From: Axinella damicornis
Taxonomy: Eukaryota > Porifera > Demospongiae > Axinellida > Axinellidae
Length of the DNA: 64,000 nucleotides
Reading direction: 5' to 3'
Assembly: GCA_963931865.1 (NCBI GenBank)
Contig: OZ007518.1
Location: forward strand, 9,166,361-9,230,360
The stretch's first letter is position 1. Every line of letters starts with the position of its first letter. This document shows, one piece after another, positions 6,286 through 54,535 of this stretch. Under the pieces are notes generated by a model that worked only from the letters and a program-made list of their open reading frames with translations, did not search any database and was not told the origin of the DNA. Position numbers and translations under genes: made by a program.

Positions 6286-9200
6286 ATGGCGATGCAACGT
6301 GTGCAAGAGTACAACACCCACACCAGCTACCACACCGATACCTTTCTCCTGAAAACAAGGGTGACGGTGAACGGACGAATCACGTCTGTGAAGGCAGGCA
6401 GTTATGAGGAACCGACCCTCGTTTGTGGAAGTACCGTTAGCGCCAAGCTATGGCTGATCGCAAACACTATCTCACCTATTCTGCACAAGTTTGGGGTCTA
6501 TCATATGGACACATTCTATTACGAGCAGTCCCCACTTTTTCATGTTGTCTTCAGCTCCGAGTCGTGTCTGAATAAGTTTCTCCTCGAGATCAAGAGCATC
6601 AAAGACGCCATGAAGGCGGCACTTTTGAATGTAATTTTGGAATCAGATTCATCCCAGGGCTTGCTTGATGTCCATCCAGAGCTGTTTCTCGTTTTCTCTG
6701 ATCTGCAAAAGACAATGGGAGTAGACCTTCATCTCATCACAGCAGCGAACTGCTCCACCTTTGCAGCCCGCTGGAAAGACCGCAACTTGTTTGATTTTGG
6801 TATGTGTACAAGTGTCAGGCCGTTGGAATGGGTGAATTCCTAGTCTATACAAGCTAACCTTCACTTTCTCCAGCATGCGATCACTTTTAGTATGCGCGCA
6901 TGAGTCGATCCGTGCTGGAGAAAATTCGAGGGGCTAGCCTTCTAGACTAGGGGGAGGGGGTGTAACCTAAAGTCGATCTGTTGAGTATAGCAACCCATGA
7001 CAATTGAAAAGGTGGACAAATGCATTGGGGCATCACACCTAGGTAACATTTGTACATCTTACTGTAAACGTCGGTACTGCAAATAACTGAAAGTACATGT
7101 ACTAGCTGTCATATGTGTATCTATACATTTGATCTAGATTGGCACTATACAGAGAAGCAGGCACGCACACCTACATCAACTCAGCATTACATCATATTTG
7201 TACTAGATTTCATTTGCATACATGCGTGTGTGTTTCTTGAATGTAGTTCCCGGTGCTCTATCACGACAGACACACAGTACATGCTTATAACCACTAAACC
7301 CCGTAATTCTAAACGCAGCTGGGATAAATTTGTCCTTTGTTCCTCAAGGGTCGCAGTCAGCAGCAATTGACCCTTCGTGCATCCGAAGCAAAGCAGAATT
7401 GGCAGTCAATTTCCATTGCACATTGCGTGTGCAGTTAATAATGGTACAATGGTAGCCACTCACTCACATGAATGTTTGGCTGATGCAGTACATGACGTAA
7501 TGTCAGTGTAGGGCACATGCCTGCCTCCTGGTAGTTAGTTGCACATCATAACCTAGCCCTGCTGCTGCAAGCGACAAAAGCTGGCGTGGAGGCCTGGGAA
7601 TGAGGCTAACCTAGCCCTATAACCACATGTATGTACTAAGTAATATTTAGATACCACTTTGCAGTGCATTACGGGTTTTAGTGCACGAGGGCAATCTAGT
7701 TAACGGTCGAGGGCGAGATAATGCACGAGCCGAAGGCGAGTGCATTATCCGCCCGAGACCGTTAACTAGATTGCCCGAGTGCACTAAAGCCCGTAATGCA
7801 CTGCAAACTGGTATCTAAACTGCTTAGTGCAACTCACTGACCCGAGACAGCCTTTGATCTTTGAAAAGTGTGCACTATCTAGATAATGCACACTAAAGTG
7901 TGCATTAAGCTTATTAATGCTCCGTCATGTGATCGATTCTGAGGCGTCTGATTCGTTGAGGGTCACGTGAGTATGGGGGGTGATCAGTGTCAAAATGGGG
8001 GTAGCAATCTAGAGGGGGGTGATTTCAAGTTGAGAGGGGGTATACTTCAAGTTGAGAGGGGGTATACTTTGCAATAGGGGGTGTACTTCGTGTTGAGAGG
8101 GGGTATACTTCAAGTTGATAGGGGGTGTACTTCGTGTTGAGAGGGGGTGTACTTTGCATTAGGGGGTGCACTTTGCATTAGGGGGTGCACTTTGTGTTGA
8201 GAGGGGGTACACTTTGCAATAGGGGGTGCACTTCAAGTTGAGAGGGGGTACAATTCAGTAATATGGGGGTGCTCTTGTTTAATAGGGATGCGTTTATAAG
8301 TTAAGCATGTTACCTGATGTCCAGTGCACATGCGTGATGATTAACCTTTGCACCCGTGATGGTGGTCACAACTCTGAGAAGAATTGCTGAGGACTTTCCA
8401 GGATTATGACGACGTTGAAGGTTTAGTTATTTGTCTAGAGCTTGTCTTACGGGAGCTGATAGCTCAAGAACACCTTGCTGGACTAGATGAGAATGAAGAG
8501 GCAGTATGTGAGTTGGTGAAGACGTCCCTTGGATACCTCAGGGTACTAGCAGATGACAATGAGATACAGCAGGATCAAGCACCACGAGTGGCTTCACTGT
8601 TAGTAACCATTTGCAAGTGCACACCTTAACTTGTGGTTGCCATCCATATGCCACAGAGAACGAGGTGAAGGTACTTGGTACCTTCGGCGATTGACAGCTT
8701 GAAGACGTCGCATGATGCTGCCTTCAGGATCGACTCGTCTTTGAGAGTTCTCACTCGTCGCTGCTGGACTCGGAATCCACGAGAGGTCAAATGACCTTGT
8801 AGCTACTTGTTTCCACACATGGGAAAACACTGCTTTATCTCTCGTACAAAGTCATCCAACTCACTATCTGTAATAGACGAGTATTGAGCACCTATGGATA
8901 ACCCAAAGTAAACCATTCTTCTCACAGTACTGAGAGACATACCAATCAGTGATGCTATTTGGGGACCAGTGAAGCCACTCTCCACAAGGAAGTTAATCTG
9001 TTCACGAGTTATTTCAAACTTGGGACGACCAACACTCCCTGTGTATACCACAGGTGGTGCTTGATCCTGCTGTATCTCATTGTCATCTGCTAGTACCCTG
9101 AGGTATCCAAGGGACGTCTTCACCAACTCACATGCTGCCTCTTCATTCTCATCTAGTCCAGCAAGGTGTTCTTGAGCTATCAGCTCCCGTAAGACAAGCT

Positions 9201-11050
9201 CTAGTAAACCTTCAACGTCGTCATAATCCTGGAAAGTCTTCAGCAATTCTTCTCAGAGTTGTGACCACCATCACGGGTGCAAAGGTTAATCATCACGCAT
9301 GCGCACTGGACATCAGGTGACATGCTTAACTTATAAACGCATCCCTATTAAACAAGAGCACCCCCATATTACTGAATTGTACCCCCTCTCAACTTGAAGT
9401 GCACCCCCTATTGCAAAGTGCACCCCCTATTGCAAAGTGTACCCCCTCTCAACACAAAGTGCACCCCCTAATGCAAAGTACACCCCTCTCAACACGAAGT
9501 ACACCCCCTATCAACTTGAAGTATACCCCCTCTCAACACGAAGTACACCCCCTATTGCAAAGTACACCCCCTCTCAACTTGAAATATACCCCCTCTCAAC
9601 ACGAAGTACACCCCCTATTGCAAAGTATACCCCCTCTCAACACGAAGTACACCCCCTATCAACCTGAAGTATACCCCCCTCTCAACACGAAGTACACCCC
9701 CTATTGCAAAGTATACCCCCTCTCAACTTGAAATCACCCCCCTCTAGATTGCTAGCCCCATTTTGACACTGATCACCCCCCATACGTGAGTAGCACTAAT
9801 GGTAATTAAGTCATATGACCTACTAAGTACACCAATCAGATTCATGCTTAAAAACCGTTGCTTCATGATTGTACACCTAGTATCAATCACATTACGTAAT
9901 GAATGTGATATTCCACATGACTGTGTTGTGTACACATAGAGAGGGCCCGAGCAGTGCTTCCACCATAGCCATGGATTACTGGAGACCAATGGGGTAATCT
10001 CATTCTGGAAACCACTAGTGCATGACATCGCAGTGCAATTAATGCTGATGTAATACATGGGCGACCAAGTAGCCTCATTCCCAGGCTCCTCCCCCTGCAC
10101 GCACTGACGAAAAACTTTCTTCACCGCGTGCAGAGGGGAGCCTGGGAACGAGGCTAGCGACCAAGAAGGCTAAACAATTGAGGCAGTATGCAGGAGACTA
10201 CATGGACTAGGCTACACAGGCGTGAAGTATGCCACGAGAAGGCTGTCCAGAGGTTCATGAATGGTTGGGATCTGCTTATGAGCTTGTCATGGGAAGTTTG
10301 GATGCCAGTAAACTTTTTCTTTCCATGGATCTTCTTTTTTATTTTGACGCCACCAAGGGCGCATAAACCCTCAAGGGAAGAGGGCATGTAACTCTCGTAC
10401 TCGCAATGTAAACGGCAAAATTGAAAACCGCAGACCGGATATACTATTATTAGATCGACGCTACTATTGTTAGTACAACCGTATACTGAAAAAGGATGCA
10501 ATTATGCGAAATTATTGTCTAAAGCTGGTGGGCCAGCTAGCTAGCTATATAGATCGATGGAGACTCGGGAGAGACATGAGAGGAAGCGCGAAGGACCGTG
10601 AGTATAATACGCCATCCAAGGGTCCCCGGCTGGTAGCGACGTCGCCATCTGTCTTGCGAGCCGCGGGTATAGCTCGCAGGTACCGTAGGCTTCGCACACG
10701 ACCGTCACCACTGAATGATGCGGTTCGTCAGAGTTTACTGGCGAAACTTGGAAGGCTAGAAGACGACAGTGGAAGGCTGAGTTGTCCACACTGCACTGGT
10801 AGTAGTGCCGCGTATCTTGCGAACATCCGGTGTTGCTAATAATAGTAGCGACGTTCTATAAATAACGCTACTTTGAATTTTGCCGTTTACACTAGTTACA
10901 TGCCCTCTCGCCACCTTCGGTGGCTCGATACGCCCTTGACGCCACACATTACTTTCCTGCAAATGCTATGTCACCATTTTGCAACTGCAAGGAAATAGAC
11001 CATTCACCAGATTATTTTCCCCCTCCGCAAACGAAAAATGGTCTGGGAAT

Positions 11051-11081
<31 letters not shown>

Positions 11082-14000
11082 TCCATTCAGGGCTTCTGGG
11101 TTCTGATACAAGTGAAACATTGGACAACCCACTGCAAACTTAGCCATGACTGCCTGCTAAGTTACATTTTTAGGTCTGCATCAGTTATCACCATATTAGG
11201 AAGGTGGTAGCGTCACAGAGGCTACTGTAAACATGATGGAGTAGCCAGAGGGCAAGCAGATCGGCCATCAACACCATACTCAGCAGGACAGCATGTGGTC
11301 AGCAAGAAAACTGATCCAGCACATTTTAGCTGAATCTACACAGATGGTTGAATGCCGCCACAAATCAGTGGCCATCTTGCCTCTGCTGCTGCAGTACATG
11401 CAGGTTGGGTTGCTTGAGTTGCAAGTTACACCGATTAATACTTAATCCCTTGCTGGAGCCAGTGCTGCATGCACTCATCTATGCACAGTGCAGTAACGTT
11501 CATTAGTTATTTTGGTGCCAACATACTGATCTGGGTACAATATTCACAATGTTATTCGCTACCTTGCTAGGTAAATATTCATTGCATTATTGGAACTTAG
11601 TTACAATATTCATGTAACAGCTATGCATAATAGTTGTGCTTCGTAGGGCAATATATAATACATTACGGTGTTGCATGTATTATGCCTAGATGGACCTTTA
11701 AGTGACAATAGATGGGAGGCCTGGGGATGAGGCTATATGTACATCTGGGTCTGACCATGACTCACAGTTCTGCGTGTTTATGGTCCGAGTCAAGATCAAT
11801 AGTCTCTCTAAGCCAATTCAGTGCACTCGCTCAGGCTTGCCCTGCAATGCCCTGCATTCCACTACTATTCTGTCTATGTCCTTCTACCACTGATTGAAGA
11901 ATTCTAAGCTGCAGTCGTATTTCATAATTTGAGCTTCATCTTGTTGTCTTGGTCCATTAGATGTGACTGAGCGAGATCTACACATCCTTACTGAGATATT
12001 GAGGCCAGCTGCTCCCCAGTGGCATGCAATTGGAGGTGCTCTTGGCATCCTAAATTCTGACCTCAATATAATACAGCACAACCAAATGTTCACTTCGGAA
12101 GGCCCTCCTGGTTATCTCAGAGAGATGCTGAGCCAGTGGTTGAAATGGGCCCCTCCCAACCATTGTTGGCCAACTATTGAAGCTCTAACTGTTGCCGTTC
12201 GGAACACTAGGCACGAAAGCCTTGCAGTCAACCTCAAATCACTGTTTCTTCAGAAGAAAAGTGGTGAGTACTGTCATTGTCATTCTGTAATCAGCTATAT
12301 AGAAGCCTGCATGTGCCTTTGAGCTGAGACATTCAAAAAAAATTTCTTTCTTCTGCAGCTGGATCAGAAATGCCAGGTACACAATGGATGCAGCACCAAA
12401 TTGCCCAGTTAGCAAACCCTTCAGTTGCTAGCTTCCCACATGCCACACAAAACACTCAATTGCAGCAGCAGCCACCACAGAATGTGCCTCCACCTCAGAA
12501 AGTTGTTACAGCTGATTCTCATCAACCCCTCCAAGCCGCTGGCACTAGTCTTCCGGCACAGCAACCAGCAGTGAGTGATTTCTTCCCCTCACAAGGCAGC
12601 CAGACTTTTGTACCAGATAGAGGTCCAGACAAGGTACCGTATGATCACTATGAAGCGTACCCAACAGGAAACGTACGAGAAATGAAGCTGAGCTCCGACA
12701 CAGTTAAACCTGACACAAATATCAAACATTCTGCAGATCCAGGTGAAGATAGGGACGAGATGAGAGCCACACTGCATGAGGTCAAAATTAGCAACAAAGA
12801 GTGTGATAATTTGCCAGCACGAGAGGGAGCAGATGTAGTAGTGTGCCAAGGTGACAGTGATACTTCCAGCAGGTTTCCCTACCTTGACTTGAAGAAACTG
12901 AGTGAGCGAGATAAGCGTGCCCTCCAGTGCAGGCTGTTGAAGGATTCTGATGATATTATCTCAGAGTTCAGTGATCTGATTCGCTTCACTATTACCTCCA
13001 CAGCCGGCCGAGTTTCAGTTATGGAACTTAGTAACTGTTTGAACACCCTTGGAAGTTACAGTCCAACCCGTAAACCAACGCCTCTTCTCCGGAACCAGAT
13101 GGATGAGATAAAGAGAGCAGAAAGTGTCGAGGAAGTGTTTTGTGTCCTAGGTGACTACTACTCGTTTTTCAACTACGGAGTAATTGAGAAGATTATTGTC
13201 TGGTTTGGCACACCAAAGGACAACAAACGATTTGACACCTACACCAAGCATTTCAAACGATTTTGCGAGCGACGAACGTTTGAGTGCCCATCCAACATAT
13301 TTGGTTACCCTGTTGACAAGGGAAAAACTAATCTTACCGTGAAGGTGGAGAAAAGCTGGGATCCCAATGATGGGTGCTCTCTGGAGAATGTCCTACGCTT
13401 GTGTAACTCTCTTGGTGAAATTCTGGAAGTCAACTCCGAAACGCTCTACCTGTGTCAAATTGATGAAGGGTGTGTGGAGCTACTGTTCCAGGTCCCTTCC
13501 TTCATAGTGGAGGACATATTCCCTCTGTCTATGGAGCAACAGAGATCACTTGCTTCCATTGGGGTGCCCAGACTTACCTGTGGAAGCTACAGCTACTTCC
13601 AAGTACGTTTGAAAGTTTAAGGTTACAGGTAGCCTCGTACCCAGGCCCCGCCACGCCCCGCCCGGCCTGGGTACAAGGCTAGCGCCCGGCCTGGGTAGAA
13701 GGCTAGGTTACAGGATAGTTGCTGTAGGCATGTCAGGTGGGTTATTTGAACGTTGTATCTCTCACACATAGAAATTGACCCAGTACAGCAAAACGTACTC
13801 AACAAGCAATTCAGTTAGCAATTCAGTTAGCCATGTTGACTAAGGTCCCGAGCATGGACCTTAGTCAACATGGCTAACTGAATTGCTCGTTTTGAGACGG
13901 CTATTCAGTGTATTCGTAACAACTTCTGTCATGCCCTGCAACTTGTTTTTGGTTACAAAAATTCAGCATAATTATGCTTCCGGTGCCGTTCGCGCAGCTG

Positions 14001-17000
14001 TGCACACAAGTATTCCTTTTGGTAGCTTAGCATCTGTGATTGAGTGCTCATGTATTTTACTCTTATCAGCTATTGGCACCACAGTTGTCTTCCCATGAAG
14101 AAAAACAACTACAGCAAGACAGTAAGTTCAATGGGTATCCCTTTTACATTCATGGGCACAGCCATTTGTTACACGGAATGTGTAGAGAGGGTATAATGCA
14201 AACATAGTCTTGCGTGCCAGGGAAAATGAATGTCTCGACCATCAAAGCTTATGTATACATGATTAATGATAATGATCAAGTTGGACTTATGTGGCAATGT
14301 GGTATAGCTAGGCCACTGATGAACCAGGATACCTGTACTGCAATTCTGACCTCACATACGCCTTTGTTGCAAAACAACCAGCTCTCTGCAAAACAACTTA
14401 TATAGTCATCTTCAGCTAGCACACTATATAGTCTTGGGAACACCAAAGACCATGTGCATATATCATACTCACCACACAATGCCCTGCATTCACCTACTAA
14501 ATCAGGTTAGTTTGACTGGTGAGCCTCACATTATTTGTGGATGATAACCTGGTGAGTGATGTACCACAGCATACCGACTGATGTCCTCATCCATGCAATA
14601 TAACATGATCCTGCATGGACACGCCATGCTGGCGCACTTGTAGCTAGTACACAGAAGCGCAGAGCAACATGCTAGATCTGGCCAGGATTCATATAGAATC
14701 TTTTGATGGGGGGAAGCAGCTAACCAATGCCTACTGTTCAGATATCAATCATAATTGAATGAACTTATTATTAGGCATCTCAGCAGCACTGTTCTTTCTC
14801 TTTCTGCATACAGCTGATCCTCCCCGAGTCACCACACATCCAGAAGGGTTAAAGGATGCATTTCCAGGCCAACCTGTTACTTTCACTGTCCACGCCACTG
14901 GTACAGAGCCTCTGAGCTACCAGTGGCGGTGGACACTTGTTCAGTCTGGGGATAAGAGTGAGAAAGAAGAGTGGCAGCTGTGTGATGTGAAGAGGCCTAA
15001 TGGCCATACACTAACCATCTCCAGTGTTCAAAAGTCGAATGAAGGGAGCTATCACTGTGTAGTCAGCAACTGCGCTGGTAGCCAGACTTCTGAACCTGCT
15101 ACACTCAGTGTTGGTAAGAATCCAGTTTCTATAGCTAACTGTGTGCACGTGCAAATAATCACAGCTGCATTCTGCTATCTCTGTGTAGCTGAACCTCCCA
15201 GCAACTCCATTGGAACCCAGACTTCTAAGTCACCAAAGTTTAGCTTCGGTAAGAAATCCAAGCATTAATCACACGAATAATTATTGTAACCAGCATCACC
15301 ACTGCATTCTTGCTCACGTACAGCTGATCCACCCAGAATCACCACTCATGCGGAAGAGTTCAGGGATGTTGTTGCAGGAAAGCCTGCAAGTTTTACAGTC
15401 CATGCTACTGGATCGGAACCCCTGTGCTACCAGTGGCAGCATAAGCCAAGAGGTGGGAGTGAGGAGTGGCAGGTCTGTGATGTGGAGAGGTTTCCAGGAG
15501 CAGACAGCTCCTCACTAACCATCCCTAGTGTTCAAATGTCGAATGAAGGGAGCTACCGCTGCACTGTCAGCAACTGTGCTGGTAGTGAGACCTCAGACTC
15601 GGCAACACTCACCCTGGGTGAGTTAAAGTTCATGTCTCTTGGGCCAGGTGTACATGTGAGCATGGTAAACACTTAGCTACAAGTACCGTAGTCTCTCGAA
15701 AATACGCCCACCCCCCTCTGCAACACTCACTGTTGGTGAGTTAAAAAGTTCTTGTCTCTGCATGCATGCGTATACTATAGTATTCATGGTAATTGCTTCT
15801 TTTTTCGTTGGCATGCATGCAGTCCTATACATGCCAAGAGCATGCACAAGCCTTGTGTTGGATTCTTATCATTCAAACCTTGTCATATTTTGTGCTATAC
15901 CAAGTTTCACCTTGTGGCACTCAAAAGTGTCATTAAAAGAGTATTATATAGCAGTCCAACAATGACAGCATTGTTGCATAATTATGCAATTGTTACAAGT
16001 GCATGCATGGGTTGTTGTGCAGGACAGTTCAATGGAAAATACAGGACATCAATAATAATGCTTACAATACTTCCTATACAGCTGCTGAGTTGGCTGACCT
16101 TGTGAAAGAACTTCAGGAGGTCAACAATTGGATACCCTTTGGCCTCAACCTGGGCATTGATATTTCAAAATTGGAGGCCATTGAGAAGGTGTGTCCTACC
16201 ATTGAGGAGCGTCACACACAGTTGTTCATTTACTGGCAGAATCAAGTGGTTCCCACGTGGTCTGCTGTGGTCCAGGCATTGATGGCGATAGGGAAACGAC
16301 GTCTGGCTTATGAAATTGCACAAAAACATGGTAGGTACCCACTAATGGAAATATCCTTGCATACTGCATGTCTTGGTAGGTATAGATGTGAATGGAAAGT
16401 ATCCTTGCTCTATGTTATTTTTTATTTTGGGGCTCCTGATGTTATGCTGCATGTGTTTGTCACGGGATATGTACATGCATAGGAGTCACTGTACCCGAGG
16501 TGCTAGATGATGAGCCTTTGGAGCAGCTATTGAACCTTTCTCAACAAGGAGAGGTAAGAAGTTTTTCTGAGAACAAGTAATACATTACTATGCAGTGTGC
16601 ACATGATTGACTGTTCCATCATCTTCATGCAGTTGAAGGCCATCAGATCTGTGCTGCTTGCAGATGTTCAGAAACACAGAGCAGGTGTCAGAAAAGCTGA
16701 TATTGAAATGAAAGGTACAAAGGAGCAACTGAAAGATTCTCAAACCTCTAAAGCAAGTATTGATGAGAACATCAACCAGATACTCTGCAGCATCTCCAAA
16801 CTCCGTGAAAAGGTGCAGAGCATTGTCCATGAGAGAAACATCACCAAAGAGAAGCTAGAGTCCAAGCAACGAGAGTGTCAGTTGCTGTCCGAAATGCGAG
16901 ATGTGCTAACTGAAGGTATGCGAGACAGTAAGACCAAAGACCAAGAGAAAGAAGTGGCTTACAGAACGTTGCTGGAAGAGAAAATCACCAAGAAGAAGAA

Positions 17001-19168
17001 AAAGATTGAAAAGTTAGAAGAAGAGTTACAGCAAAAGGATGTCAATCTCAAGTCTGCCCAGCAAAAAGCCAGATCTCTAGATGAGAAGCTATTACAAGCT
17101 CGAGCAGAGCTGAAAGTGAAACATGAAGAAGTAAAACAGTTACAGAAAAAGACTGAAGAACTGACCTGTTCTTGCAATATTGAAAAGGAACGAGTCAGCA
17201 AGCTTGTCCAGGTCACAGTTGCTCTTACTGCTGATAAAAAGAAAATAGAGGTATGTCAACATGCATTGGTAGCTATTTTTTTATTAGCAATTCAGAATAA
17301 TTTGTCAGCACATGCGTTGCTTTACCTTCCCGTAGCAACAACTGGTCAGTACAAAAGATGAGTCAGAGATTAAATCACAACAAATCGAAGCCTGTAATTC
17401 CAGTATCACCTCTCTCAGTGAAAAGGTGGAAGCTCTATCATGTTCCCTCAAGGAGAAGGAAGCTACTGCAGTACAACTGAAGAGTGAGCTTCAGTCATCA
17501 CACCAGCAGGTTTCCAACACTGCAGAACAGCTGCTGGAGTCACTTAAACTGCAACCCCAGATTGCTGAACTAGAACGCAAGTTGCACGAAGCAGAGTACA
17601 AGAAGCAACAAGCAGTGTTGGAGAAGAGAGCTGTAGTTCAAGAGATGGAGGCCAGGCAGAAGTTTGAAGAACAGCTTCATGTGCAACTTGGTGGTGAGCT
17701 GTGAGACTTGTCATGCACGTCTACTGTATAGCCTCATTCCCAGACCCACGCTGGTTTCAGTTGAAACGGTGGGCGGTGCCTGGGAACGAGGCTATGGCTG
17801 CTGTGCCTGTCACTGTATAAGTATCATAATGTGTTCATTTTTCTTCAGACTACGAAAGGCAGAATCAGGAGTTACGTGCTTTGCTGCAACAGAGGCTTAG
17901 AAAGGGAGATCTATGGTGTGTATAGATGTGTAATGAACTTGTGTGTTTGTGTGGACTCACGTACATGTATGTGTGTGTATTTTTCATTGTAGAAAGTAGA
18001 AGTGGAGCGTGCATATAAGCATGTAGTAACACATTTTACAAATTGTTACGGAGACATGCTTGTATGGCTGGTTATCTATATAAGTTAGGTAGCCAGAGTC
18101 TCCCTCCTTTCAGGTTTCTTGTTGATGTGAATTGGCTTAGGCAGTGGAAGAAGTATGTGGGCTATGACCATGCTAGACGGCGGCCATCAGCCTACCCGGG
18201 ACCAGTTGACAATGCCAACCTTTTCAGAGGTAGAGTATTCTACTGTTGAGATTACGGGTAATGCACCAGTTGACAATGCCAACCTTTTCAGAGGTAGAGT
18301 ATTCTGCTGTTGAGATTACGGGTAATGCACCAGTTGACAATGCCAACCTTTTCATCCTTTGAACCAAATTTCACCTGTGAAGTATGAATGTATTACTCAA
18401 CAAGGTCAAGCATTTTTTGGGCGAACCAAAGTTGGCTGTGGCATTTCTGTATATTTATTCCGTACGTCGTGCTGTAAATCACTTGCAGCTGTCATTTTGT
18501 GTGTTGTTGAAGTCACTTGTCATGTGGACCGACTTCTTCAATGGCTATAGCAATGGGGTTGCAAGCTTTGGAGAGAGAGAATAATCCACAGAAAAAATTC
18601 TGGGACCAGCTGGGATTCGAACCCAAGACCTTCTGAGTACTAGTCAGACGCTCTTACCGCTAAGCCACTGGGCCCACGGCAGAGGAGTGGAAGCAAGGCT
18701 GCATATAACAGCGCAGGCTAGAGGACTTAGCCGATTCCAGCTGTCTTTCTCTCTCTCTCACGGTTGTTTCACTGCCATAAGTGGAGATCCCCTGCGGACG
18801 GGGTTACGTGCGTTATAGTTCATGTCAAACACTGCTTCAGCCTGCTTGACTCACTGTTTTGTGCAAGTGTGTGTGATTTTCAAAGGCAGTGCGTGATGTA
18901 CCTGCTTCAGCTAGCCTGACTTGCATTTCCTGTGTCATTGCATAAATTATTGTGTGTACTTTGGTGTGATATTCTGTCACCTGTGGTGGTGCTCCTTGAA
19001 TGCAGACCCTGGGTCTGATGTGCTAAAGGAAAACCTAATGGAGGAACAGCACTACAATCTCCTGCCAGAGGCTGCTTGGAACAAGCTTCTTGCCTGGTAT
19101 GGACTCTCCCAGGGCTCCACACCTATTAGCAGGTGAGACTGTTCGACTCGAACACAAAAGCCCCCCCC

Positions 19169-19199
<31 letters not shown>

Positions 19200-22100
19200 A
19201 CAGTGTACAGTGCATGGAGCACCCTCTGAATCTCAATGTCTGTGCGTGGTGCATGTGTATCTGCAGGAAGGTGGTGGAGTATGGGCTGCATATGAAGCAC
19301 CTCAAGGTGGAGGTCTACCTCCAGGAGTTCAGCCTCTACCTGTACCCTAAGTTAAAGGAGACTGTCATCAAATCTTTCAGCCATACCAGTACTATTGGTA
19401 AGCCTTATGATCCCAGGGCCTGAGTAGTAAGCAACTGGCTGCAATGCAGCTGTGTAAAGCCTATATATGGACGAGATGTAGGGGTATGCCCCCTCCCCCT
19501 CAACAATGAAACGCCTTGTAGTTTAGATGCTGAGCAGGACTATAGCTAAGACTGAATGACACCATAGATAATATCTGTGATGACACTGACAATTAATGTT
19601 ACAGGGTAGGTAGTGTGTTTGCTGTATTGTTACCTGCGCATGCGCGCAGCAGGGGCTATAAGTGATCGGTTTGTGTCTCTGTTAGTCTGTGAGCACACAA
19701 AAATCAGCAGTTTGAGCAGCGAAGGCCTTGTTGAAGGCTTACTTCAGGCAGGAGTGTATGAGCCACTGAAGGTGGCAAATGAGCATGCACACCCTAGCCG
19801 AAGTACCGGTAGTTGTCCTTCACACGTCCCAAAATTTCCTTATACGGCAAGAGGCCATTACGTAAAAGTAAATTGGCATTTGTTCATATACCGTAGTCGC
19901 GCGTTATTAGGCGCATCTCACTTAGCTAGAGGCGCATATTCACTGTTAGGCGCATGTTCAACTCTCGTCCCAGGTACTCGCTGTTAAGCGCTGCAGTTTA
20001 CTCTGCCATTTTCGATCCTACGGAGTGGAAAAAGCTATAATTCTAAATGAAGCGCACTTCCTATTCGAGGAATGTCATTATAAAAATATTCGTTATTAGG
20101 CGCATCTCGCTTATAGGCGCATATCTCCTTCCTGTGGAGTTATAGGCGCATGCGCCTAATAACGCGCGACTACGGTAAGGTATGACCGTAAGGCGTGAGG
20201 GATCACAACATGTCTATATATACTATAGATCGCCGCTCCTTCACCGCCTTCGGTGGCTCATGCCCTCCTGGTACCGGTTCAGGATAGAAGTATCAGAATT
20301 CTAGCATCTACGTAACTCACAGACCAGAGATCACTCGAGAGGCTAAGAAAGGCTGCGTGGAAGTCTTGTTTCTAATTTTTACAACTTGACCATACCCTGT
20401 TTCTAATATTACCGCCACAATTTACGGTATCTTATTCTGCATGCTGACATCGCATTAAAAACCAGTAGACCCATCATTCATGCTGTATTAATAATCAGCA
20501 GTAGGCCTCATGTCAAAGTAGTGCACGGGGTACAGAGCACCTCTAGTTTCTTACGTGAGAGGTTTGTGTACGATTAATTCAGTCTCGCCATAATTAGCTG
20601 TATCAAGCAATCAATCATCCAGATTTCCAACACCTCCCCCAGTAGTACCATGGGGTACCAAACTGTACTATCGGTGAGGGACACTCACGTTATGTGGCAA
20701 GATGCGGATGCTGATGCCCATGCAGGCCTAGGCTTGGCTAGCCACTGCATGCATTTGTGTGATATATATAGCTGCATGGTTGTGTGATTGAGTGACATCA
20801 ATAGTGTTTCACATACATACTGAGTGCTGTCTCTTCCTTTGGACTAGGTGACCTTGAAGCAGAGCTGAGGTCCACGTTTGAGGTGAGCATGGACATCGAA
20901 TGCCGTGTGTGGCGCCGCTACACAACCAGCACATGCGAGGTACTCTCAGATCCAAGTCAGACACTACAGGATGCTGGACTTGACAGTAGCCAGGTGGGTG
21001 GTAGCATGCAGGCTGTTAATTAGAAGGGAAGCAGGGAAGTAGTAGCATGCAGTAGCAAATCCTATGGAGGAAGGTTGAATATCAATCTCTATTGTTTGTG
21101 TGTTGATCTCCATGTACATGCAGAGTATATTTCTTGAGCAGAAGAACAAGAATGGCAGCTGGTCGTGCACAACTGAGTGAGTGTAGCAGTACTACATCAG
21201 ACAAATAATAACATTGTAACAGGATGTAGGGATACCAGAATGGCAAAAAGTAAGAAAACAATTAAGGTAGGGATGATTGCCCAAAACAGTGAAGTATACA
21301 ATCCCCCTTCCAGAGATCTTTTTCCATATACCGGTACCGGTATAATTAGAAAGGTATACTTCACTGTTTTGTTGCTAGCCAAAAACAGAATTGATGTACA
21401 TAATATTATAAGCACTGTATTTGCCAAATAGCTATCTTGTGTCCTTGAAATGTGATAATGCCATGCCAAGTGGGGGCAAAGACATTCCAATGGGGGGGGG
21501 GGGGGGGGGGTCATGCATGGTGGCATGCATGTCGTACTTGTGCATCAATACTGCAAGATTATACTATAGCTTCCCACCATCTTGTTTGTCCCTTGGCAGC
21601 ACAAAAGAGTGTTCTTCACATTGATGCCTATTGAAACTGGTTTGGGCTAGAGACTATTCGGTCTGTGAACCCTGTTTGTCATAAACTTAAAGTACATCGG
21701 GACTGTATGTTAAGGGACACCTAAATGCCATGTTAACAAAGATGAAAAATGTATTGTTTTTATGCCTACTTGCAGGTACGAATGTGCAGGTGTTGCCTCT
21801 TACCTGCGGAAGGAGGTGCAAGTCAACCCAGACTGTACCACCAAATCCTTTGAAACTCCGCCTAGCCTTGCCTATGATCCTGAAATAATACGCGAACTCC
21901 TCCGACATGGGGCAACCCCTGACTACCAACTTTGGAGAAAGTATCTTCCTTCAAACTACCCAATAGAGCCTCCTCAGGCAGCAGTTAAAGCGTTTGTGGT
22001 TGGTTACCCTGGTTCTGGGAAGAGTACAGTTGTAAAAGCCCTGGAAACAGAGAGCAAAGGACTATCTGCTCTTGCAAATCGAGTATCAAAAGTGTCTGGT

Positions 22101-24014
22101 GTTGACATGAATACAGCAGGCATTGTGCCTCATGACATTGAGAGCACCAAGTTTGGCCGACTCACTCTGTATGACTTTGCTGGACAAAAGGAGTTTTACG
22201 CTGGTCACGATGCAGTGCTCAGGAATGCAGTTTCTGGTTCACTTGCAGCTGTCTTTCTCATTGTTGCAGACCTACGCAAAAGTGATCAAGAATTATTCCA
22301 GGAGGTAATCCTGTACTGGTTAGCCTTCCTTGAAAATCAGGGACATCCAACTGACCCTAAGCCCCATGTTATCATTGTGTGCAGCCATGCTGACCAACTG
22401 AAGAAGGAAGCTATAGAAGAAAAGATAAAAATTGTGGATTCTCTCCAGCAATCGCCAGCCTTTTCAAGTTTCCACTTTGCAGGAGTTGTTGCAATGGATT
22501 GCCGATATGCAGCGTCTAATTCCATGTCACAGCTTCGTCAGCATCTTGCCAAAAGCTGTGAACAGCTTAGAATCAAAGTTAAAATGAGCTTTAGAAGCTA
22601 TTGCTTTTTTGTATACCTCCTTGACAAGTTTGGATGGTATCCAGCAGTTGAGCTAAGTAAGGTTGCTTCAGCCATTGCTAGTGAGTCAGCAGACAACCAG
22701 TTAGCAGCCTTCATTCCTGAGGGCATCAGTGTCGCTTCCCACATCTGCAATGAGCTGAATGAAAGAGGCAATATTCTGTTCTTTAAAGGTTCTGGAGCAA
22801 ACGAAAGCAGCTGGATCATCTTACATAAGGAAATTCTTCTTTCTCGAGTGACAGGCACAGTCTTTGCTCCCAAGGACTCCATGCAGTACCAGAATCTAGC
22901 CAACAGCACTGGCGTGGTCCCATTCTCTAAGATTCCCACTCACTTCCCAGATCTTAACCCAGACATGATTGTCCACTTCCTCTGCCATCTGGAGTTCTGC
23001 AACAATATAGCTGACTCTGAAGTCCTCCAACTCCTCCATTCAAATTCTCTAGGAGACAGTGAGCCTGTTGCAACGTCTGACCCCACTGAGAGGTTTCTGT
23101 TCTTCCCTAACCTGGTCAGCAAAGAGGTGCCCAGTGGAGTGTGGGAGAGCAGGCCGTACTTCAGCTATCAGTATGGTTGGGTCTTGCAGTGCAAGCCTGG
23201 GCAGTTCTTCACTCCTCGCTTTCTTCAAGTCCTCCTCCTTCGACTAGCCTTCTCCTATGCTTTTACAACAGATGTGCAGCAGGCAATAGGCGATGATCAA
23301 GTTACCCTCCAGAGGAAATGCAACGTATGGAAGAGTGGTATCTACTGGCAAAACCGAAGTGGAGATGAGGGATTAGTGGAGGTAGGGGAAAGAAGTAGGA
23401 GAGTCATTCTCATGCTGCGCTGCCTCAAGGGGAGACAAGTAGAATGTGCACATTTACGATCTGCCATTATAGGCATAATACTGCAAGCAAAAAGTGAATT
23501 CTGTCCGAAAGTAGCAATTCGTGAGTTTCTTCTTCGACCCTCTGATTCCAATGATTACCCTCTCAAACCGTCGACTGAGCTCACATTCATTACAATTGCA
23601 GAGCTTGCTAATGCAGTTATGAAAGCAGAACCAGGTGTTCTGGACATGGATGGAAATGGAATTAGCATTGTCGATCTACTCGGGTTTGAACCATATGCCT
23701 ACCTAGGCGAACGCATCGTCCGTGAACTCTTTGACGAACAGAATCCCAGCTACAGTGAGCAAGACTTCCTGTATGGGATCGCTGACAAGAACTATCACAT
23801 GTTCGATAACTTCAAGAAGATGCTCAATCTTTCAGTGGCTGTAGTAGACTTTCATATCGCACAGGCCCCCCCTGGAGAGGCTCATAAGATGGCCCACCTC
23901 CTCCGGTGCTGGAGGGAGAGAAGCAAGGGGTCCAGACAGTGCCTCCGCCAAACATTCGACCACTTCAGTGTGTTTGCTGGGAGAAACCCAATTGTAAGTA
24001 TTCAATCTAATTAA
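6286..24014 (+). CDS. Giant Ig / death-domain / DUSP-UBL / Roco (ROC-COR) / death-domain protein
   Basis: Model: join(6286..6799, 11961..12263, 12359..13602, 14085..14121, 14814..15113, 15189..15248, 15324..15617, 16082..16330, 16483..16553, 16633..17250, 17336..17693, 17849..17915, 18114..18229, 19006..19132, 19267..19397, 20848..20993, 21124..21176, 21776..24014), about 2,308 residues. Every junction is GT-AG and in phase. Domains by approximate residue: unknown N-terminal region 1-171; death domain 172-272; P/Q-rich 273-440; conserved 'SFFNY' module 450-687; Ig-like 700-799 and 820-917; death domain 918-1000; coiled coil 1025-1370; DUSP 1371-1460; UBL 1465-1560; ROC 1635-1810 with GYPGSGKST, DFAGQ and SHAD; COR about 1820-2150; death domain about 2215-2300. 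A GTAAGT at 23994 (phase 0) could splice on to a short last exon; otherwise the frame stops at 24014. It is likely a cytosolic GTPase-switched scaffold (inference). It could be two genes if transcripts break the chain, but the phases argue against this. Confidence 0.75.
7648..7817. mobile_element. 170-bp inverted-repeat element
   Basis: Near-perfect inverted repeat: TAGATACCA...TGCAGTGCATTACGGG and AGTTAACGG on the left mirror the right arm ending in TGGTATCTA. It lies in the first intron of the large gene, has no coding capacity, and is MITE-like. Confidence 0.85.
7972..9784. mobile_element. Fold-back DNA transposon with long TIRs and subterminal repeats
   Basis: The termini are TATGGGGGGTGATCAGTGTC and its complement, flanked by a 6-bp direct repeat CGTGAG at 7966-7971 and 9785-9790, which is the likely target-site duplication. 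Each arm (about 600 bp) contains an array of short GGGGGT-rich subterminal units (AGTTGAGAGGGGGTATACTT type) and then an inverted copy of the same ORF start (8384-8590 plus; 9060-9246 minus). The centre carries a broken integrase-core remnant. It is a non-autonomous, internally rearranged copy in intron 1 of the giant gene. The open frames at 9399-9731 are only the GGGGGT array read in the other direction. Confidence 0.85.
8640..9246 (-). pseudogene. Broken integrase-core (rve-like) transposase remnant
   Basis: The minus frame from 9246 starts MLKTFQDYDDVEGL and leads into a helix-turn-helix-like region (GRPKFEITREQINFLVESGF, then SLSTVRRM). It then meets an in-frame stop after CFPMCGNK. After a frame change, the run RRVDPEGSIMRRL ... 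VPSPRSLWHMDGNHK follows (about 8750-8640), which is the start of the integrase-type catalytic core with its first Asp. The rest of the core is missing and the sequence joins the other TIR arm. This pattern is known from integrase-core proteins scattered through fish, cnidarian and sponge genomes. The copy cannot encode an active enzyme. Confidence 0.7.
10070..10156. mobile_element. TAGCCTCRTTCCCAGGC palindromic MITE
   Basis: Begins TAGCCTCATTCCCAGGCTCC and ends GGAGCCTGGGAACGAGGCTA, with GCACGC/GCGTGC inner pairing. One of many copies in this window; TA at both ends fits a TA target. Confidence 0.85.
10345..10945. mobile_element. About 600-bp TIR element with unknown ORF
   Basis: Left arm: GACGCCACCAAGGGCGCAT ... 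AGAGGGCATGTAACT ... GTAAACGGCAAAATT. Right arm: the complement, ending CGCCCTTGACGCCAC. A fragment with CACCGCCTTCGGTGGCTCAT recurs near 20240. The interior holds an open frame of 111 residues (10504-10839, plus) rich in Arg, with a CPHC pair near its end; I recognise no family and it may be fortuitous. Confidence 0.7.
11054..11081 (+). repeat. Long poly-G tract
   Basis: About 28 consecutive G. Comparable G or C homopolymers occur at about 19163-19185 (C), 21496-21510, 25015-25043, 27731-27752, 30055-30079, 49438-49462 (C), 60645-60662 (C) and 61467-61483. None is inside an exon. Confidence 0.9.
11961..12263 (+). other. Exon 2 of the giant gene: first death domain
   Basis: The exon enters in phase 1 (G|AT GTG ACT) after acceptor TCCATTAG and leaves in phase 1 at GTGAGT. 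The encoded roughly 100 residues show the death-fold pattern: WHAIGGALGIL early, a D-containing helix, WLKWAPPN, then PTIEALTVAVRNTRHESLA near the end, the usual W..L...L....LA C-terminal helices. The same pattern recurs in exon 8. Confidence 0.75.
13630..13705. mobile_element. TAGCCTCGTACCCAGGC MITE with doubled right end
   Basis: Left end TAGCCTCGTACCCAGGCCCC; the right end GGCCTGGGTACAAGGCTA is followed at once by a second GGCCTGGGTAGAAGGCTA. It lies in the intron after exon 3 of the giant gene. Confidence 0.8.
13817..13887. repeat. Perfect 71-bp hairpin
   Basis: AGCAATTCAGTTAGCCATGT ... GACTAAGGTCC pairs exactly with the complement at 13855-13887, leaving a loop of a few bases. The sequence after it (TGCTCGTTTTGAGACGGC to TGCCCTGCAACTTG) resembles 36375-36445, so the hairpin may be the end of a dispersed element. 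Confidence 0.85.
14814..15617 (+). other. Ig-like exons of the giant gene, with a vestigial Ig exon between them
   Basis: Two phase-1 exons (14814-15113 and 15324-15617) encode I-set-like Ig domains: LSYQWRW / LCYQWQ, LTISSVQKSNEGSYHCVVSN / LTIPSVQMSNEGSYRCTVSN. The B-strand Cys is replaced by Val in both (FTVHATG). Between them, 15189-15248 is a 60-bp phase-1 exon that keeps only the start and end of an Ig domain (GTQTSKSPKFSF). A further 3' remnant without an open body lies at 15718-15745 (GCAACACTCACTGTTGGTGAG). This is a series of exon duplications at different stages of decay. Confidence 0.8.
16082..17915 (+). other. Second death domain and long coiled coil of the giant gene
   Basis: Exon 16082-16330 carries a second death domain (ELADLVKELQEVNNWIPFG ... 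TWSAVVQALMAIGKRRLAYE). Exons 16483-16553, 16633-17250, 17336-17693 and 17849-17915 then encode about 370 residues of heptad-rich, Lys/Glu-rich sequence with almost no Pro or Gly, a long coiled coil expected to oligomerise the protein. The last of these exons ends in phase 2, so that TG|G makes the Trp that opens the DUSP domain. Confidence 0.8.
17729..17794. mobile_element. TAGCCTCATTCCCAGAC-type MITE
   Basis: TAGCCTCATTCCCAGACCCA on the left and GCCTGGGAACGAGGCTA on the right, in an intron of the giant gene. Confidence 0.75.
18201..18356 (+). repeat. Tandem duplication of an exon end with its splice donor (64-bp unit)
   Basis: Units start at 18201, 18265 and 18329 (the last partial). Each of the first two contains AATGCCAACCTTTTCAGAG|GTAGAG, that is the 3' end of the DUSP exon and its donor. 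The third diverges before the donor. Two competing donors are therefore available. Confidence 0.85.
18602..18674 (-). tRNA. tRNA-Thr (AGT)
   Basis: The minus strand folds as a standard tRNA: acceptor GGCCCAG / CTGGTCC (one mismatch), D arm with TGGCTTAGCGGTAAGAGC (A box), anticodon stem TCTGA / TCAGA around loop CTAGTAC (anticodon AGT), variable AGGTC, T arm TTGGG-TTCGAAT-CCCAG (B box). A run of six T on the minus strand begins 4 nt past the end, a good Pol III terminator. It is antisense inside an intron of the giant gene. No intron in the tRNA and no SINE tail is evident. Confidence 0.8.
19889..20177. mobile_element. MITE with TACCGTAGTCGCGCG termini
   Basis: TACCGTAGTCGCGCGTTATT on the left and its complement ending CGCGCGACTACGGTA on the right. 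The interior is made of repeated TTAGGCGCAT units. A related end, TACCGTAGTCTCTCG, occurs at about 15686. It sits in an intron between DUSP-UBL exons. Confidence 0.85.
21776..24014 (+). other. Exon 18 of the giant gene: ROC-COR tandem and C-terminal death domain
   Basis: Enters in phase 2 (GA|G TAC GAA). A short ankyrin-like stretch (EIIRELLRHGATPDY) precedes the Ras-like ROC domain: P-loop GYPGSGKST at about 22002-22028, switch II DFAGQKEF at 22173-22196, and SHAD (G4 position) at 22383-22394. About 330 residues of COR-like sequence follow, then a region ending HLLRCWRERSKGSRQCLRQT with death-domain character. The order ROC-COR-death is that of DAPK1-type Roco proteins; no kinase domain is present. 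Confidence 0.85.
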
Positions 24015-51171: not shown

Positions 51172-52431
51172 TCAGTTCTCTCCAAACATCCCCTTCTCTC
51201 CAAACAGTCGCTGGCTGTGATCATCCTCACGAGCAAACCAGAACATAAAGAGCTTTTCATTGAGCTCCTTCCTTGAGATCTTGCCCTCGTTTTCATGGTC
51301 AATTGAACTGAAAGTTTTGTCGGCATCACTGACGTCAAGTTGCCAAGCATTCGTGACTTTCCTCCACTCTTCCAGTGTTACGTGCCCTTCATGGGTGATG
51401 CCTACGGCGTCATACCAGGCATTATTCAACTTGTCGATCAGCGCATCCTCCCCCTTCCGCTTCTTCTCTATTTCACGCGGGGCATAAACAAGAATCTCTC
51501 GAATAAACTCGTATTTGGTAACTTTCTTTCCGGGAGTGAGCCCCATAGCGCTGCAAATCTCCTGCATGCAAGAACGAAGGTTCTGGATCAACTCTGGGGA
51601 CGAGTCACCATTGCTCGGCATGGGCACGTGGTCCTTCTCAAACATGTCAATCTGTGCCATGAAATCGTCCATCGACACAAATCCATCCTTATCGCGGTCC
51701 AGCCTGACAAACAGCTCTTCCATACGGCGTTGCCACCCAGGGTGGTGTGCATGCTCTTCGGAGGCGGCCACCACGGTTGGATATCCAAACATCCCCTTCT
51801 CTCCAAACAGTCGCTGGCTGTGTTCATCCTCACGAGCAAACCAGAACATAAAGAGCTTTTCATTGAGCTCCTTCCTTGAGATCTTGCCCTCGTTTTCATG
51901 GTCAATTGAACTGAAAGTTTTGTCGGCATCACTGACGTCAAGTTGCCAAGCATTCGTGACTTTCCTCCACTCTTCCAGTGTTACGTGCCCTTCATGGGTG
52001 ATGCCTACGGCGTCATACCAGGCATTATTCAACTTGTCGATCAGCGCGTCCTCCCCCTTCCGCTTCTTCTCTAGTTCACGAGGGGCATAAACAAGAATCT
52101 CTCGAATAAACTCGTATTTGGTAACTTTCTTCCCGGGAGTGAGCCCCATAGCGCTGCAAATCTCCTGCATGCAAGAACGAAGGTTCTGGATCAACTCTGG
52201 GGACGAGTCACCATTGCTCGGCATGGGCACGTGGTCCTTCTCAAACTTGTCAATCTGCGCCATGAAATCGTCCATCGACACAAATCCATCCTTATCGCGG
52301 TCCAGCCTGACAAACAGCTCCTCCATACGGCGTTGCCACGCGGGGTGGTGCGCATGCTCTTCGGAGGGGACCACCGCGGTTGGATCTCCGCGCTGCGAAG
52401 TCTGAACCGGATTGGATCTCCTATTTCCCAT
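51172..52431 (-). CDS. EF-hand protein made of two near-identical 201-residue halves
   Basis: Single-exon frame, 419 residues from the MGNRRSNP start (52431); the frame stays open to an upstream ATG at 52551, so the start is uncertain. MGN would permit N-myristoylation. Each half has an EF-hand loop DRDKDGFVSMDD, a degenerate central pair around GITHEGHVTLEEW, and a second good loop DHENEGKISRKE. The spacing fits the four-EF-hand sarcoplasmic calcium-binding / photoprotein / calexcitin superfamily. The halves correspond to a 603-bp direct repeat (period 51181 to 51784) with only a few substitutions, so the duplication is recent and in frame. It is probably a cytosolic calcium buffer or sensor. 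The last-loop acidic position is Asp in the first EF-hand, which usually changes ion preference. Confidence 0.85.
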   Translation of the reverse strand: MGNRRSNPVQTSQRGDPTAVVPSEEHAHHPAWQRRMEELFVRLDRDKDGFVSMDDFMAQIDKFEKDHVPMPSNGDSSPELIQNLRSCMQEICSAMGLTPGKKVTKYEFIREILVYAPRELEKKRKGEDALIDKLNNAWYDAVGITHEGHVTLEEWRKVTNAWQLDVSDADKTFSSIDHENEGKISRKELNEKLFMFWFAREDEHSQRLFGEKGMFGYPTVVAASEEHAHHPGWQRRMEELFVRLDRDKDGFVSMDDFMAQIDMFEKDHVPMPSNGDSSPELIQNLRSCMQEICSAMGLTPGKKVTKYEFIREILVYAPREIEKKRKGEDALIDKLNNAWYDAVGITHEGHVTLEEWRKVTNAWQLDVSDADKTFSSIDHENEGKISRKELNEKLFMFWFAREDDHSQRLFGEKGMFGEN

Positions 52432-53731
52432 CTCCTGTATATATGTGACCGTCTGTTTCACTCGATCTGAAATTAAGTACGGATCGGAATTGTCATTATA
52501 GTCATGTGACTTCCGCACGCACTTTGCACTTGTACTTTTATTGTAGCGCAACGCCGGATCGGAAATTTCGGAATTGCCATATAGCTATATGGCTGCTGCC
52601 TGGGAACGAGGCTAGGCTGCTCCAAGCCTGCATGGGCAGGAAATCTCTTTCCCGGTGGGCTGCACTACTATGCTGGTGTACATGTATTTGAGGAGCTGAT
52701 GGAGAAGCACAAGGTTGCAACCAGGGAACTAGAAGGAATGTCCTTGCCCATCCAGTAGCACCAGTACTGATGAAGAGGTTGCATCTGAGGTGAATGTCAC
52801 ATTTCACAGCTGATATCTGATCTTGACAAATGCATGCTACAACTATAAACACTTTTACAAGGAGAGATCTTGTGCACTAATAATTGTAGCTTGTTATGTT
52901 TGCCTTGTGTTTTCTCTGTAATGTCAAGTTGTTTCCTTTTGTTGCTGCCCCTTTTATTCTTGTTGCATTTCTTGCTTGTAATTATTGTACACATGCAGGG
53001 CGCTGCTGAAAACCAGCTCGCTGATGTAGCAACCCTGTTAAAAGAACATTTATACAATACAATACAATATCTAGCCTCGTACCCAGGCCTTCAATCGCGA
53101 TTGAAGGCCTGGGTACGAGGCTAGGAGAGATCATGCAGAGTAGCAAAATTATTATGATAACTACATAGTGTTGCTTGTGGAATGCACTCAGGCAAAAACA
53201 AAGGTCTTCTGGAGGCCAACCATAGATGGCTGGACGGTAGACTTCAACAACATACCACTCACTAGCTGTTTCTGCTATCACAAGCTTGACTGCAATTTGG
53301 CTGTCACTACTACAAAGTGCACCAGGGCACACGACAGATTGGGTGCAAGGCACATACGTTACGGTCTGCACCATCGCAATATACCTGGATTTCCACGTGT
53401 TCCCGCATTTCCGTGTTCTCCAGTTGCCCTGTCAAACTACATACAGACTGTGATAAGGGAATTGAATTTTAAGTCCTAATAACCTAGCTACCCTTCAAAA
53501 TATGCATTCACTAATTATAATGTACGGTGTATGACCATGCAGATGTCAATCATGTCATGATATGTGTAGCTATGTGCAGGAGAGAATGCAACGGGGAAAG
53601 TTTGGCAGGAGCCTGAGTGAGCCCACCTCTTGTTTGAGGATCTACACTGAGCTAGCAGATGAATGTCTGTCAGTACACTTACCAACTTACGCTAAAACGG
53701 CTAGCTAGCCTTACCAGCCCTCAGTTTTAGC
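52432..53731. other. Interval without a supported gene
   Basis: Holds a right-end fragment of the TAGCCTCG MITE (about 52585-52613) and a compact 52-bp palindromic member (53072-53123, TAGCCTCGTACCCAGGCC). The minus frame at about 53170-53340 (WYVVEVYRPAIYGWPPEDL) and its plus counterpart look weakly protein-like, but no splice structure or family is recognised. Confidence 0.4.
53072..53123. mobile_element. TAGCCTCGTACCCAGGC palindrome (52 bp)
   Basis: TAGCCTCGTACCCAGGCCTT CAATCGCGATTG and the exact complement: no loop, perfectly palindromic. Confidence 0.9.
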
Positions 53732-54535
53732 ATGAAACCCTCGACACAATACACACAAATCTTTAGAGGGACAAAATCAGTCATATTAACATGTATAGTG
53801 GCAAATACAACCCCTCAAGCTGACTTGTTTCTGGTCAATAATTCAACTTCTCTAGCCACAGAGATAGAGAACCTAGTCGAGAAAAGACCACATGTGATTG
53901 TTTGCTCTCTAGGGTTCGACCAGTTTAACCAGCAATTATCCAAGGCTGTTAACAAAGCGATAAATGCAGGTATCATACCTGTTTTCTCAGCTGGAAACAT
54001 TGGTCTCACTGGCAGCAATACAATCAGCTACCCCAGCAGGCTTGGAAATGGTCTCTGCATCGGAGCCCACACGTGGCACGGTACATCTCACAGCTTCAGC
54101 TCTGTGGGTCGTGAAGTCGACTTCCTTGCCCCAGGAGAATTCATGATCTTGGGCAAATACCCAGTTTCTGGCACATCATTCGCTGCTCCAGCAGTAGCTG
54201 CCTTTATTGCCCTCATCCTACAGTACGTTGACAAGATAGTCAGTGGCGAGTGGAAGCAGAGGCCACTAGAAGACAAGTATAAATCGATTGATGCTTGGTC
54301 TGAGAACCCACCAGGCAGTGACAAGTGGAGCTGGAATAAGATCCCCCTTAATGTCGCTTGTCGCAATGTCTATGTGATGCGGGAACTCCTGCGACAGATG
54401 AGCGTCCATCGCACAGAGCACTCGGACTCAGCTGGCTACGGAAACCTTGATATCAGGCGACTTCTGAAAGATCTTGAACCTGAAGATATTCACAGCATTG
54501 TCCAAAACTTCCACATACACAAGCCCTCACCCTAA
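53732..54535 (+). CDS. Subtilisin-type (S8) protease, C-terminal portion only
   Basis: Open frame of 267 residues. It contains the late subtilase landmarks: VFSAGNIG with the oxyanion-hole Asn at about residue 89, FLAPGE, and VSGTSFAAPAVAAFIAL with the catalytic Ser at residue 149 (about 54176-54178). The catalytic Asp and His segments that should precede are absent from this frame and I could not find them in the kilobase upstream. The ATG at 53732 may be internal to an exon; acceptor-like CCCTCAG and CAGTTTTAG precede it. After the Ser region, about 100 residues of unknown helical sequence end in LLKDLEPEDIHSIVQNF. It is either a truncated copy or the last exon of a gene whose 5' part is elsewhere. 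Confidence 0.7.
   Translation: MKPSTQYTQIFRGTKSVILTCIVANTTPQADLFLVNNSTSLATEIENLVEKRPHVIVCSLGFDQFNQQLSKAVNKAINAGIIPVFSAGNIGLTGSNTISYPSRLGNGLCIGAHTWHGTSHSFSSVGREVDFLAPGEFMILGKYPVSGTSFAAPAVAAFIALILQYVDKIVSGEWKQRPLEDKYKSIDAWSENPPGSDKWSWNKIPLNVACRNVYVMRELLRQMSVHRTEHSDSAGYGNLDIRRLLKDLEPEDIHSIVQNFHIHKPSP

Follow-up and report, generated by a model that had tools for sequence, protein, structure and literature searches.

The stretch of Axinella damicornis DNA analysed here, referred to as the window, is 64,000 nucleotides long and corresponds to positions 9,166,361 to 9,230,360 of contig OZ007518.1 (assembly GCA_963931865.1). On its plus strand, a chain of 18 exons at 6286–24014 encodes a predicted protein with immunoglobulin (Ig), Death, DUSP, ubiquitin-like (UBL) and ROC-COR domains. 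It is likely that these exons form one mosaic gene, probably produced by exon shuffling, in which a deubiquitinase-like linker-DUSP-UBL region is joined through a phase-2 intron to the ROC-COR region of a Roco protein, which replaces the protease. The chain was put forward in an original prediction made from the DNA letters; rebuilding it base by base showed the coordinates to be right. It comprises 6,942 nt, specifying 2,313 residues plus a stop codon, with no internal stops. All 17 introns are bounded by GT-AG, and exon phases are compatible throughout. Two links stressed in that prediction are indeed exact: TG|G (17915/18114), which yields the first Trp of the DUSP domain, and GA|G (21176/21776), which joins the UBL to the ROC exon.

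Splice sites can be chosen by eye to fit, and evidence independent of the chain was therefore sought. The five splice junctions within exons 12–17 are identical in position and phase in a second gene of the genome. The donor of exon 17, GA|GTGAGT, matches in codon position in two DUSP-UBL relatives, while the acceptor of exon 18 lies at the same codon, in phase 2, in all six ROC relatives of a cluster on contig C12. Exon 1, in turn, recurs in a tandem array on the contig of the window, and two of five copies examined have an Ig exon close behind it. The borders of exons 2–4, 6 and 8–11 are without independent support from relatives. The one-gene reading is well supported by these comparisons, and we infer a single transcript across all 18 exons. 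Pfam scans were made on pieces of the chain (exons 4, 6 and 12 excepted) rather than on the chain as one protein. They placed the predicted Ig, Death, DUSP, UBL and ROC domains above their cut-offs; the predicted COR domain has no Pfam match and is recognised by its fold instead. A search with the full 2,313-residue chain returned 11 proteins, all with a coverage of at most 31%, from a collection that apparently consists mostly of single-exon calls of such genes. Three lgn proteins (P0141, P0166 and P0206) were considered as transcripts and rejected; they extend past the exon 3 donor site and look genomic.

Exons 12–17 encode the linker, DUSP and UBL. Exon 12 (17849–17915) is a conserved linker to the DUSP domain, exons 13 (18114–18229) and 14 (19006–19132) encode the first and second parts of that domain, and exon 15 (19267–19397) encodes its end together with the start of the UBL region. 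The UBL follows in exon 16 (20848–20993) and ends in exon 17 (21124–21176), which closes in phase 2. Together they specify a USP4/11/15-type DUSP plus UBL pair (71.5 bits for DUSP and 72.2 bits for Ubiquitin_3 in Pfam; match to USP15 with E 1.6e-53). A USP4/11/15-type deubiquitinase identity for the window gene was nevertheless rejected for want of a UCH catalytic domain: all 117 candidates in the genome were scored and 87 matches listed, none of them inside the window. The DUSP-UBL half resembles the leading part of a deubiquitinase gene without its protease, a point that the original prediction had missed.

The genome scan for DUSP gave eight matches at six loci, and that for UBL gave four loci, the window included in both; each of the five other DUSP loci was read within a stretch of 29.7 kb. 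The most informative is at 10.698 Mb on contig C14, the contig of the window and 1.5 Mb from it. Here a Death exon (5.6e-8), the same linker, DUSP, UBL and a USP Cys box are found, with a further UCH match just downstream of the box. The six linker-DUSP-UBL exons of this apparent Death-DUSP-UBL-USP gene, of USP4/11/15 type, share their boundaries and phases with window exons 12–17. Their lengths (relative/window) are 67/67, 128/116, 127/127, 131/131, 146/146 and 53/53 nt; the one that differs does so by four codons. Over these exons 149 of 211 residues are identical, with dS 0.83 and dN/dS 0.20; all such values here are pairwise Nei-Gojobori estimates, in which the window's own branch and the time since fusion are not isolated. 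A locus at C14:5.18 Mb has kinase, coiled-coil-like, linker, DUSP and UBL exons and a USP box in which the Cys reads Ser; 143 of 212 residues are identical to those of the window (dN/dS 0.22). The clustering of kinase, coiled-coil-like, DUSP-UBL and USP-like exons at C14:5.17–5.20 Mb may represent a kinase-linked pseudo-deubiquitinase. The locus at C14:5.31 Mb has a decayed look, and tblastn matched its first DUSP exon only. UCH matches lie beside the DUSP locus on C4, and no UCH match is found near that on C1. None of the three other UBL loci has a ROC downstream, and exon 18 found no tblastn match (E 0.01) in any of the five other DUSP stretches.

Two minor features of this region were also seen. 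At 18203–18350 the last part of exon 13 recurs in the intron that follows: there are three consecutive copies, two with the donor, which provides decoy donors. In the same intron, a tRNA-Thr-like sequence (18601–18675, minus strand) overlaps a segment (18632–18805) that is 88% identical to a stretch of contig C1; it is probably no working tRNA but a short interspersed element derived from one.

Exon 18 (21776–24014) contains, in order, an ankyrin remnant, ROC, COR, a C-terminal helical region and the stop codon. Its ROC domain exceeds the Pfam cut-off (PF08477, 28.2 bits against 27), matches the ROC of LRRK2 by phmmer (E 2.1e-6), and is shared at E up to 0.01 by all 52 members of a comparison set (A1) that includes the window. 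COR follows directly, as judged from fold matches to the RocCOR tandem 3dpu (E 2.5e-13) and the COR structure 3dpt (E 6.0e-6); LRRK2 is aligned over model residues 64–736. A Pfam COR match is absent from the window, and COR-B was matched in one of the 52 set members. The ROC domain has a P-loop, GYPGSGKS, and a switch motif, DFAGQ, and GTP binding is therefore expected. Membership of the DAPK family was considered and rejected: no kinase was matched in the scanned pieces, and no Pfam Death domain in the gene's own C-terminal region, a domain that was matched in five of the 52 members of the set.

Related exons are numerous. For exon 18, 63 genome matches are listed, the window and split pieces included (the best 59 of 203 candidates were scored). 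The closest six among them, at 74–76%, form one cluster at 5.36–5.62 Mb on C12, and two members that were measured give dN/dS 0.32 and 0.33. The stretches read around the other DUSP loci contain none of the 63 listed matches; on a contig shared with a DUSP locus, the closest lies about 0.6 Mb from that locus. Contigs C5, C7, C8, C11 and C12 also carry clustered ROC-bearing exons, and many of these lie in open frames 1,000 to 5,000 residues long. The ROC genome scan, in which the best 150 of 366 candidates were scored and the window's own ROC is unlisted, does not amount to a census.

The join between the two halves lies in intron 17. The region was compared by blastn (plus strand, E 1e-4) with two C12 loci and the five DUSP stretches. 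At the DNA level, similarity to the USP-type gene extends to 21186, 10 bp beyond the exon 17 donor, and similarity to the C12 genes starts at 21747, 29 bp before exon 18, the acceptor tract included. The intervening stretch (21187–21746) holds a dispersed repeat (21203–21327), present also in two of the other stretches compared, and an 18-bp perfect inverted repeat (21282–21299 and 21354–21371); it is the putative recombination zone. In the C14:10.698 Mb relative, the phase-2 donor GA|GTGAGT is followed by a USP exon with a phase-2 acceptor. The ROC exon of the window therefore occupies the place of the protease exon, in the same phase. Both homology blocks end inside intron 17, with a repeat between them, and the join is therefore most simply read as exon shuffling in phase 2, through recombination within the intron.

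The 5′ part of the chain comprises exons 1–11. Exon 1 (6286–6799) encodes an N-terminal domain of 171 residues with no Pfam match above cut-off. It belongs to a tandem exon family: the genome holds 70 matches, the window included, of which 16 others are at least 72% identical, and 13 of these 16 lie on the plus strand of C14 between 8.71 and 9.69 Mb, which places the window gene within or beside a tandem array. Of five copies examined, two are followed, at most 1.3 kb downstream, by an Ig exon resembling exon 5; the other three have no Ig exon within the 1.5 kb downstream that was examined. None of the five copies has GT at the position of the window's exon 1 donor, so that their first exon must end further on. 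Intron 1 contains a long inverted-repeat stretch (7960–9800) with short G-rich and C-rich motifs, related open reading frame (ORF) pieces on both strands and a minus-strand ORF at 8803–9252; read by eye, it has the look of a mobile element.

Exon 2 (11961–12263) encodes a death-like domain, as judged from hhalign against a five-sequence Death alignment (probability 95.7, E 8.9e-9). It matches no Pfam family, and among solved structures it finds no death domain, the best chains being ETV6 fusions and peptidoglycan-recognition proteins (E about 0.01). Exon 3 (12359–13602) comprises a low-complexity linker, a helical region and a TRADD-N-like domain. Its helical half matches no Pfam family, and a single chain, at E 0.46, came out of a profile search against solved structures; the sole basis for labelling it DED is the account of TRADD-N proteins in PMC8195603. 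The TRADD-N-like domain, death-like exon 2 and the ankyrin remnant with which exon 18 begins had all been overlooked in the original prediction. In a genome scan with exon 3 the best 100 of 172 candidates were scored, and in that for Death the best 150 of 980.

Downstream of a short linker in exon 4 (14070–14121, phase 0 to 1), two Ig domains are encoded by exons 5 (14814–15113; Ig_3, 2.1e-13) and 7 (15324–15617; Ig_3, 4.5e-12), with another short linker in exon 6 (15189–15248) between them. Exon 8 (16082–16330, phase 1-1) is a Death domain by Pfam (7.5e-6; 26.4 bits, cut-off 22.6). It is followed by a linker in exon 9 (16483–16553) and by exons 10 (16633–17250) and 11 (17336–17693), both coiled-coil-like by eye and with no Pfam match above cut-off. 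Exons 1, 2, 5, 7 and 8 gave no tblastn match in the five other DUSP stretches, and a weak exon-3-like match lies near C14:5.29 Mb (26% over 70 residues, on the other strand).

Several observations weigh against reading all 18 exons as one shuffled gene. The C14:10.698 Mb relative is itself read as one gene from exon order and phase. Its Death exon shares only 32% identity with exon 8, which found no match at E 0.01 in the five other DUSP stretches. Exons 4, 6 and 9–11 are without homology support. The link from exon 1 is weak because intron 1 is 5.1 kb long and bears the mobile-element-like stretch. The two exon 1 relatives with an Ig exon have no match to exon 2 or 3 between the two, and exons 2–4 would therefore be an insertion or an alternative; they may have been inserted as a phase 1-1 cassette that separated exon 1 from the Ig exons, an argument weaker than that for exons 12–18. 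Finally, read-through past the exon 17 donor meets an immediate stop, as it does in the C14:10.698 Mb relative, so that a transcript retaining intron 17 would end as a DUSP-UBL protein.

This last point bears on the leading alternative, that two or more genes lie side by side: one with Death, Ig, coiled-coil and DUSP-UBL exons would end near exon 17, and another, for ROC-COR, would have an unseen first exon of its own. Retention of intron 17 would close the frame of the former, and an in-frame ATG 14 nt upstream of exon 18 could serve the latter. This arrangement is nevertheless unlikely. The relative has the exon 17 donor in common with the window and there continues to a phase-2 USP acceptor; exon 18 is the next recognisable exon after exon 17 in the window, and its acceptor and phase are those of the six C12 relatives. 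Low dN/dS and the lack of stops in both halves would be unexpected for two broken gene ends. The same values make it decidedly improbable that the locus is a recent, non-functional fusion, a chimeric pseudogene whose frame is open through chance or because it is young, even though the join sits in a repeat-bearing intron and the DUSP locus at C14:5.31 Mb looks decayed. The frame runs for 2,313 codons without a stop, and an unconstrained copy as diverged as this one (dS 0.83 with dN/dS 0.20 for exons 12–17; dS 0.40 with dN/dS about 0.32 for exon 18) should carry stops, with the proviso that these ratios are pairwise and do not isolate the age of the fusion. Least probable of all is an assembly misjoin of two loci within intron 17, where similarity to each relative stops and the dispersed repeat sits; at the protein level the flanking exons are 24 to 29% different from the closest relatives found and so are no collage of two known copies, and the contig is 10.8 Mb long.

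The preferred reading, a single mosaic gene, can be set beside known systems. The C14:10.698 Mb gene shares with it the Death exon, linker, DUSP, UBL and exon 12–17 borders, but continues into a USP protease with a Cys box where the window has ROC-COR; the window also adds upstream Ig, TRADD-N-like and coiled-coil-like exons. Members of the C12 family share the single exon, the acceptor phase and the order ankyrin remnant, ROC, COR and C-terminal helices, but have no DUSP or UBL match in the 1.5 to 5 kb upstream examined. Unlike LRRK2, DAPK1 and MFHAS1, named as known Roco proteins in the original prediction, the window gene gave neither a kinase nor an LRR match in the Pfam scans of its pieces.

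Closer parallels come from marine animals. In the available part of PMC8195603, Amphimedon proteins are described that begin with a Death-like plus TRADD-N unit and vary in their C-terminal part, and oyster proteins that have Ig repeats with DED-TRADD-N. The Amphimedon partner domains named there are ankyrin, SH3-LRR, kinase, MATH, SH2, PDZ, caspase, PNPase and HD, with no DUSP or ROC; the term DUSP occurs nowhere in the main text. The window gene likewise bears Death and Ig domains, together with a putative TRADD-N-like domain, and differs by its DUSP and ROC. The Death-like domain required for this class is found in exon 8 by Pfam and in exon 2 by hhalign only. The actiniarian novel gene NG3 combines kinase, death, ROC/COR, SH3 and TIR in one protein, for which its authors suggested domain shuffling (PMC5094078). 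It shares Death plus ROC/COR in one protein and a related kind of shuffling with the window gene, whereas kinase, TIR and SH3 set NG3 apart, and no DUSP-UBL or TRADD-N appears in the available description of NG3. A pairing of DUSP-UBL with ROC-COR was not found by title or abstract among the open-licence papers listed. The earlier description of the architecture as undescribed therefore holds for this pairing within that literature, but not for the class, as lineage-specific Death/TRADD-N mosaics of a sponge are already in print (PMC8195603). The window gene fits a kind already known, the Death/TRADD-N/Roco mosaics of marine animals; what appears new is the DUSP-UBL/ROC-COR combination.

COR usually mediates dimerisation of Roco proteins, Death and TRADD-N domains usually build death-fold or adaptor complexes, and the DUSP-UBL of USP4/15 functions in partner binding and protease tuning. 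A mechanism can be proposed on this basis. Linker-DUSP-UBL exons resembling those of a Death-DUSP-UBL-USP gene would have met a ROC-COR exon by recombination inside intron 17. In the resulting protein, ROC would bind GTP and set the COR-mediated assembly state of the scaffold; the Death and TRADD-N-like modules would next nucleate a death-fold complex. The protease-free DUSP-UBL could dock the partners that the related deubiquitinase binds, to recruit them or else to compete for them; the setting may be a cell-death or immune pathway, as the original prediction proposed. The product, as far as domain content allows us to infer, would be a death-fold scaffold switched by GTP and equipped with a USP docking module that lacks the protease. 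We lean slightly towards a bolder proposal, in which a Roco GTPase captured the docking half of a USP4/15-type enzyme. This would have created a new signalling class, a protease-free docking platform of the ubiquitin pathway governed by a GTP switch and by death-fold assembly, with intron 17 as the scar of its birth and the tandem array as the source of its first exon.

Mosaic death-domain proteins are known as a class in sponges and sessile marine animals but, to our knowledge, the origin of a given architecture is seldom visible. Here a single genome displays close relatives of both halves together with the precise intron, the phase in common and a candidate repeat, which makes an exon-shuffling route to immune or cell-death scaffolds directly testable. 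If the protein is made, it pairs a Roco switch with a deubiquitinase docking module, a combination undescribed in the open-licence papers listed. Elsewhere in the window, a 470-residue EF-hand-type ORF made of two nearly identical halves lies on the minus strand at 51175–52584, and a subtilase exon (Peptidase_S8, 1.4e-20) on the plus strand at 53705–54532.
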